IMG/VR virus record: IMGVR_UViG_3300026488_000021
Coordinates: 18,023 to 82,022 of that record
DNA length: 64,000 nucleotides
Reading direction: 5' to 3' (one strand)
Origin: a virus
Shown: piece by piece, positions 33,340 to 33,945 of the stretch
Layout: every line of letters begins with the position of its first letter
Position numbering within the stretch: position 1 is the stretch's first letter
Notes under the pieces: model-generated
What the model was told of the DNA's origin: nothing
The model's database searches: none
The model's input: the letters and a program-made list of their open reading frames with translations, nothing else
Made by a program: the position numbers and the translations under genes

Positions 33340-33945
33340 ATATAAAAACACGATAAGTCGTGCTTTTATATTTGCGGTCGACTATATTTTTTTCTGGAGC
33401 CTCGACCGCAAGGCTCAACAGGAGTCTTTTTTGTTTAACCGGTGTTTCCCCTCACCGGTAAAACCACCCGTGTAAATATATTTAATCCAAGAGGCGAGCC
33501 AGGCGGTGCTTTGAACTCGCCCCTTGTTGAATTTAGTTTTTATCCTATCTCGAGCTATAACCAGTAGGCAACTACTCCTACTGGAAACGCTCGACCACTC
33601 GCCCCGTCGGTCCGTTGCTCGTCCACACCAACCAAGCGTAAGCTACGCTACACGCCCAGCCGGTGCTTCATCCAAGCTGTCCCCCGCTTCGGGGCGGTGG
33701 ATGCGGAGCCGGAGCCCCGCTAATGTTAAATATCTACCCTTTTAACTGATAAGCAAGGGGTAGGACCAGCCGTCCTTGCTTACCAGCCCAGCCCAGGAAT
33801 TGAAACCTATAGGCTGGTAGCAGGTTTTAGCCCCTGCTAGGGCTTTATAAGTATTACGGCTTAATACCGTAACACTATCAAGGAACTTCGTTTTAGCCCC
33901 TCCGTCGGGGTATCCGTTCCCTGATGCTGTTAGTAGTATAATCAT
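33340..33945 (-). ncRNA. Large structured RNA candidate (about 600 nt)
   Basis: A GC-rich block in otherwise AT-rich DNA that folds on the minus strand into at least ten consecutive perfect hairpins: TTACGG/CCGTAA (33854-33872), TAGCAGG/CCTGCTA (33818-33839), ACCAGCC/GGCTGGT (33782-33818), AAGCAAGG/CCTTGCTT (33751-33781), ATCCA/TGGAT enclosing CCCCG/CGGGG (33670-33702), AGCGTA/TACGCT (33635-33649), CGAGC/GCTCG enclosing CCAGTAGG/CCTACTGG (33551-33593), GGCGAG/CTCGCC (33493-33521), ACCGGTG/CACCGGT (33438-33459) and TTGCGGTCGA/TCGACCGCAA (33372-33411). It ends in a terminator. Size and style recall large ornate phage RNAs (ROOL, GOLLD), but I cannot match it to a known family. It opens the early operon. 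Confidence 0.6.
33344..33364 (-). terminator. Leftward intrinsic terminator after structured RNA
   Basis: On the minus strand: GCACGA, loop CTTA, TCGTG, then TTTTT. Separates the RNA block from the first protein gene, so read-through or attenuation could regulate the early operon. Confidence 0.75.

Follow-up and report, generated by a model that had tools for sequence, protein, structure and literature searches.

The early operon of a phage that reads TGA as glycine is headed by a GC-rich block that is very probably a functional structured RNA of the minus strand. Computation shows that its RNA-type fold is specific to that strand, that the block is non-coding, and that the structure continues downstream into what is very likely a real gene. 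The window, that is, the whole stretch of DNA analysed here, is 64 kb long and comes from a virus record of 82,022 bp; its genes fit code 25 (TGA = glycine), with 46 TGA glycines in the terminase gene alone, and the presence of terminase, portal and tape measure genes marks it as a phage genome.

A strand-specific fold between divergent operons

The early genes, among them those for a helicase, an exonuclease and an MT-A70 methyltransferase, occupy the minus strand from ~33.3 kb to 13.8 kb, and the packaging and structural genes (terminase with an intein, portal, tape measure) lie on the plus strand, starting at 35.2 kb. The structured block sits in the gap between these divergent sets, at the head of the early operon, where a preliminary description of this DNA had placed it. 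Its GC content (33340-33945) is 0.495 against 0.279 for the whole window, and of all 200-nt windows in the 64 kb the four richest in GC fall within it, in agreement with the GC-rich block in AT-rich DNA originally reported; the tRNA-Asp proposed as an internal control for this property also stands out, at a GC content of 0.618. Perfect hairpins exceed expectation under three definitions: nine against 3.5 ± 1.7 in shuffled sequences (≥5 bp, ≥2 GC, loop 3-12), six against 0.8 (≥6 bp, ≥3 GC) and three against 0.1 (≥7 bp, ≥4 GC). The excess described earlier is thus real, although the accompanying count of at least ten was slightly generous.

Folded as minus-strand RNA, the segment 33325-33960 reaches −264.8 kcal/mol, compared to −193.6 ± 4.9 kcal/mol for shuffles (z −14.5), whereas the plus-strand fold of the block has a z of −6.8; a background of 31 random 606-nt stretches has a mean z of −1.0 (sd 1.9, lowest −6.8). 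The energy gap between the strands, −56.4 kcal/mol, lies 7.6 sd beyond that of shuffles (−20.5 ± 4.7), and confident pairs include 16 GU pairs in the sense (minus) strand but three in the antisense. This asymmetry, together with the GU-rich helices, argues for selection on a minus-strand RNA rather than for a cluster of DNA palindromes, and the initial assignment as structured RNA is upheld for a non-coding, minus-strand element of ~590 nt.

The predicted fold consists of about 20 helices, most with a pair probability above 0.95 and several of them long-range, with GU accounting for 23 of the 196 pairs (Table 1). Because local z-scores over 120 nt are mostly about −1 to −4 in the block, as opposed to −14.5 for the whole, the signal resides in the long-range architecture. 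Candidate pseudoknots and loop-loop contacts lie at the edge of chance, the best having −13.8 kcal/mol where the 5% point of the null is −14.7. The boundary first drawn at 33340 does not hold, since in sliding windows significant structure runs on to about 33021.

Table 1. Features of the structured block and of the start of the early operon (positions in the window)
Feature	Position	Strand	Basis or remark
Promoter-like TTGAAA-16-TATACT, upstream edge of block	33935-33962	-	10/12 match
67-codon open frame, judged no gene	33742-33945	-	Codon score, TGA use, start signal
Non-coding structured RNA block, inferred transcript ~590 nt	33338-33929	-	Fold z, helices, strand asymmetry
5' hairpin, outer stem of 10 bp (P 0.96) and nested 4-bp stem	33877-33925	-	Predicted fold
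Second hairpin, 11 bp, P 0.98	33850-33876	-	Predicted fold
14-bp hairpin	33745-33787	-	Predicted fold
Candidate H-type pseudoknot, loop CUACC of the 33745-33787 hairpin with GGUAG just downstream		-	Read from sequence; taken together, such pairings do not exceed chance
7-bp hairpin, C(UCCG)G tetraloop of UNCG type	33703-33720	-	Predicted fold
Long-range branched domain	33595-33700	-	11-bp closing helix 33690-33700/33595-33606, P 1.00
GU-rich 16-bp hairpin (7 GU), enclosed by the 33595-33700 domain	33625-33666	-	Predicted fold
Two-stem hairpin, 6 + 8 bp	33550-33594	-	Predicted fold
12-bp hairpin, loop can pair with 33460-33487	33488-33526	-	Predicted fold; loop pairing at edge of chance
Perfect 7-bp hairpin	33438-33459	-	Predicted fold
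10-bp hairpin immediately ahead of terminator-shaped hairpin	33372-33411	-	Loop GGCUC complementary to flanking GAGCC
Terminator-shaped hairpin, 16 pairs, downstream edge of block	33338-33373	-	T-run passes into the ORF 33317 start signal
First gene of the early operon; 100-aa product without known family, serial perfect hairpins in message	33015-33317	-
Second gene of the early operon; very basic 42-aa product, one glycine written as TGA	32811-32939	-
Second terminator-shaped hairpin, overlaps end of 42-aa gene	32805-32832	-

Hairpins in the first early gene and in a distant phage

The ORFs starting at 33317 and 32939 are both very likely real genes, because theirs are the top two unlisted starts in the window. 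They were scored with a matrix learned from 68 gene starts in the window, in which a T-rich stretch precedes an A-rich one (consensus ATTTTTATAAATTAAAAAAAAAAAATG) and no Shine-Dalgarno sequence is evident, a pattern reminiscent of Bacteroidota-type starts; ORF 32939 has the best-scoring unlisted start, and ORF 33317 (score 11.5) ranks second among 2073 unlisted ATGs.

The first early gene has a codon z of +2.4 and a fold z of −10.6. Permuting only its synonymous codons abolishes the fold (−115.8 versus −70.6 ± 5.4 kcal/mol, z −8.3), so that the hairpins are made by codon choice and not by the protein. The gene has one confident GU pair on either strand and a strand asymmetry within that of shuffles; given this lack of strand preference, a DNA-level origin of its hairpins is possible beside selection at the RNA level. 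A single-sequence AlphaFold prediction of the encoded protein has a pLDDT of 65, and a match of the protein to adiponectin, spanning 21 residues only, was judged spurious.

Three phage-like contigs were reached through terminase matches in Gracilibacteria-type genomes, and the relatives within reach have few proteins in common with our phage, at low identity. G349 (contig L014), a very distant code-25 phage with a terminase and an anti-restriction protein, has a first early gene that diverges from the terminase gene as here, with a fold z of −21, a synonymous-permutation z of −12.2 and a strand asymmetry exceeding that of shuffles by 4.7 sd; for 26 other genes of our phage, G349 and G015, the permutation z ranges from +2.6 to −3.5. 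The early message of G349 (L014 12957-13375) resembles ours in its place at the head of the early operon, its divergence from terminase, its dense perfect hairpins and its strand-specific excess, but its hairpins fall mostly within a coding gene. As no sequence similarity was found between the early loci of the two phages, that of G349 is a parallel and not a homolog. G015, the nearest relative by proteins, lacks comparable structure at the corresponding position. The hyper-structured first gene counts two cases among a handful of phages, G349 having been spotted by eye in a hairpin list and then tested. Another extreme value in the same contig, a z of −20 at L014 12620, falls on a TA/CA dinucleotide repeat and was rejected as a shuffle artefact. 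A GTAGGAAATTATTTGTGATA-like sequence stands ahead of three early genes of G349 (L014 12917, 14351 and 14948), and a TTACCTCACTCGTATACGTA-like repeat is dispersed over intergenic and coding stretches of G015 (L012 1700-4360).

Discrete RNA, message leader and other readings

Our preference, held tentatively, is that the block acts mainly as a discrete RNA, in the manner of the large ornate phage RNAs, on a transcript that we infer from its edges. The promoter-like site upstream and the terminator-shaped hairpin downstream were counted in favour of an immediate-early minus-strand RNA; promoter-like matches are no commoner than in shuffles, so that only the position of this one is suggestive. Transcription of the early operon would begin near 33929 and would yield first a non-coding RNA of ~590 nt with a branched, long-range fold, and next a short, hairpin-dense coding segment from 33317 to 32805. 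In a fraction of transcripts the RNA would be released at the 33373-33338 hairpin and might act in trans as a scaffold or binding RNA, with other polymerases reading through into the first genes. Of the intrinsic minus-strand terminator reported at this place, the hairpin is confirmed but the terminator status is not: its T-run is shared with the T-rich part of the ORF 33317 start signal, which makes termination here only possible. Stable folds ahead of the start codon are also found at other genes of this phage.

The same overlap speaks for a second reading, less probable but still to be taken seriously, by which the early message is one long hyper-structured transcript running from 33929 to about 32805, with the block as its untranslated head. 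Such a leader could shield the message from single-strand-specific or 5' nucleases, or control read-through, and the 33373-33338 hairpin would then be no transcription end; only 20 nt separate this hairpin from the start codon, with no obvious room for a separate promoter. Structure is unbroken through the first gene, whose synonymous codons build hairpins, and the gene at the equivalent place in G349 is equally hyper-structured, which its 26 comparison genes are not. What speaks against a single continuous element is the difference in kind between its two parts, as the fold of the block is long-range, GU-bearing and strand-specific, whereas the gene forms a chain of local, perfect Watson-Crick hairpins; moreover, no such large non-coding block was identified in G349.

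It is improbable that the block is instead a DNA-level element, namely a replication origin or recombination site whose inverted repeats function as DNA or were generated in it by template switching. Although it adjoins an AT-rich gap with four inverted TTTA[CG]ATTGTATA sites, and the perfect Watson-Crick hairpins of the adjacent gene are without strand preference, the minus-strand asymmetry and GU-rich helices of 33340-33929 would be unexpected for DNA palindromes. About as improbable is an RNA-based antiterminator in the style of HK022 put, in which the nascent RNA would bind polymerase and let it pass the two early-operon hairpins: put is a short two-stem element, the block is several times longer, and neither terminator call is unambiguous. 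In 13600-33400, the two terminator-shaped hairpins that are strongest on the minus strand do both lie within 1.2 kb of the presumed transcription start. For an RNA at the head of an early operon, ahead of terminator-shaped hairpins, the likeness and the precedent would be HK022 putRNA, described in PMC9378689 as a nascent RNA suppressing termination of early genes, from which our block differs in being far larger.

Least probable is that the 67-codon frame encodes an early protein, with the structure as a by-product: among the six frames it has the best codon score across its span, but this score (−0.49, where true genes have about +0.19) lies within that of open shuffles (z 1.2), none of its eight glycines is written as TGA, the start signal of its ATG at 33945 is poor (−2.0, a value reached by 19% of other ATGs), and it spans only a third of the block. 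Having failed two coding tests, the frame is judged not to be a gene.

Known RNA families and other features of the genome

Covariance models of Rfam 15, run over 2.45 kb, gave a best E-value of 2.6 with all hits far below gathering scores, and those of ROOL and GOLLD gave no match either at gathering or at E 10, consistent with the earlier statement that no match was recognised. No homolog of the block turned up in viral contigs, a phage collection or 353 Gracilibacteria-type genomes; blastn found none in phages and gave only short matches, mostly to the AT-rich ends, in the 353 genomes. Its 5' domain, searched with a single-sequence covariance model, a type with little reach, matched only the window itself; searches for relatives with terminase or portal peptides, with TGA-containing or code-25-aware motif patterns and with a neighbour protein returned nothing or unrelated contigs, and a metallophosphatase alignment found two distant phages only. 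Of the suggested new class of large phage ncRNA, a structured ncRNA without an Rfam match is retained, but "class" is unproven, because no homolog was found and the block is a single orphan sequence.

ROOL assembles as a homo-octamer into an RNA cage joined by kissing loops and A-minor contacts, and pseudoknots are among its features. The block is likewise phage-encoded, ~600 nt long, intergenic and predicted to adopt a multi-branched fold, but its pseudoknots are only candidates. Moreover, ROOL often adjoins tRNA islands (PMC12286853), whereas the block is away from any such island (the only tRNA of the window, tRNA-Asp, is 20 kb distant) and has neither an Rfam match at E 10 nor a homolog family. 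With GOLLD it shares the elaborate structure of a large phage RNA; many GOLLD members, however, exceed 800 nt, lie near tRNAs and have a common conserved 3' region (PMC12286853), whereas the block measures ~590 nt between its inferred edges and has no Rfam match. The resemblance to ROOL and GOLLD noted at the outset therefore extends to size, phage origin and multi-branched fold, and no further.

Large structured phage RNAs are, to our knowledge, few and mostly without known function; the block would add one at the head of an early operon, in a virus of barely cultured, recoded Gracilibacteria-type bacteria, and this setting, that of host take-over, suggests tests. A more speculative and rather unlikely generalization is that some code-25 phages open their early programme with hyper-structured RNA, combining a large folded non-coding domain with a first gene whose codon choice locks its message into serial hairpins, an arrangement that we do not know to have been described for a phage. 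If true, this would represent a new class of ncRNA, or a shield against RNA decay or against RNA-targeting defence. The dual-coded first gene, present in two phages with hardly more than terminase recognisably in common, is a sharp, checkable pattern.

A second GC-rich non-coding island (13107-13296, minus strand; GC 0.52) lies where the early operon reaches its distal end, and finishes in a textbook minus-strand terminator with T7. Its fold z is −4.5 over 13060-13360 but only −2.0 for 13098-13296 alone, it has no Rfam match, and it is a candidate for a second small RNA. In the very AT-rich gap between the divergent operons, 33980-34239 contains four TTTA[CG]ATTGTATA sites in alternating orientation, which are candidates for operators or origin iterons. 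At 34437-34510, runs of G7 and G8 are flanked by two near copies of GTAAAGYAGACC. The large terminase gene (35776-38982, plus strand) carries a LAGLIDADG intein within its Walker A motif (RQYGK / S); the first residue of the intein is apparently Gly, not Cys or Ser. Finally, most other genes use TGA for most of their glycines, but none of the 32 glycine codons is TGA in a 442-aa gene (42008-43336, plus strand) that, judged by position only and without a family match, possibly encodes the major capsid protein; avoidance of the reassigned codon may go with high expression.
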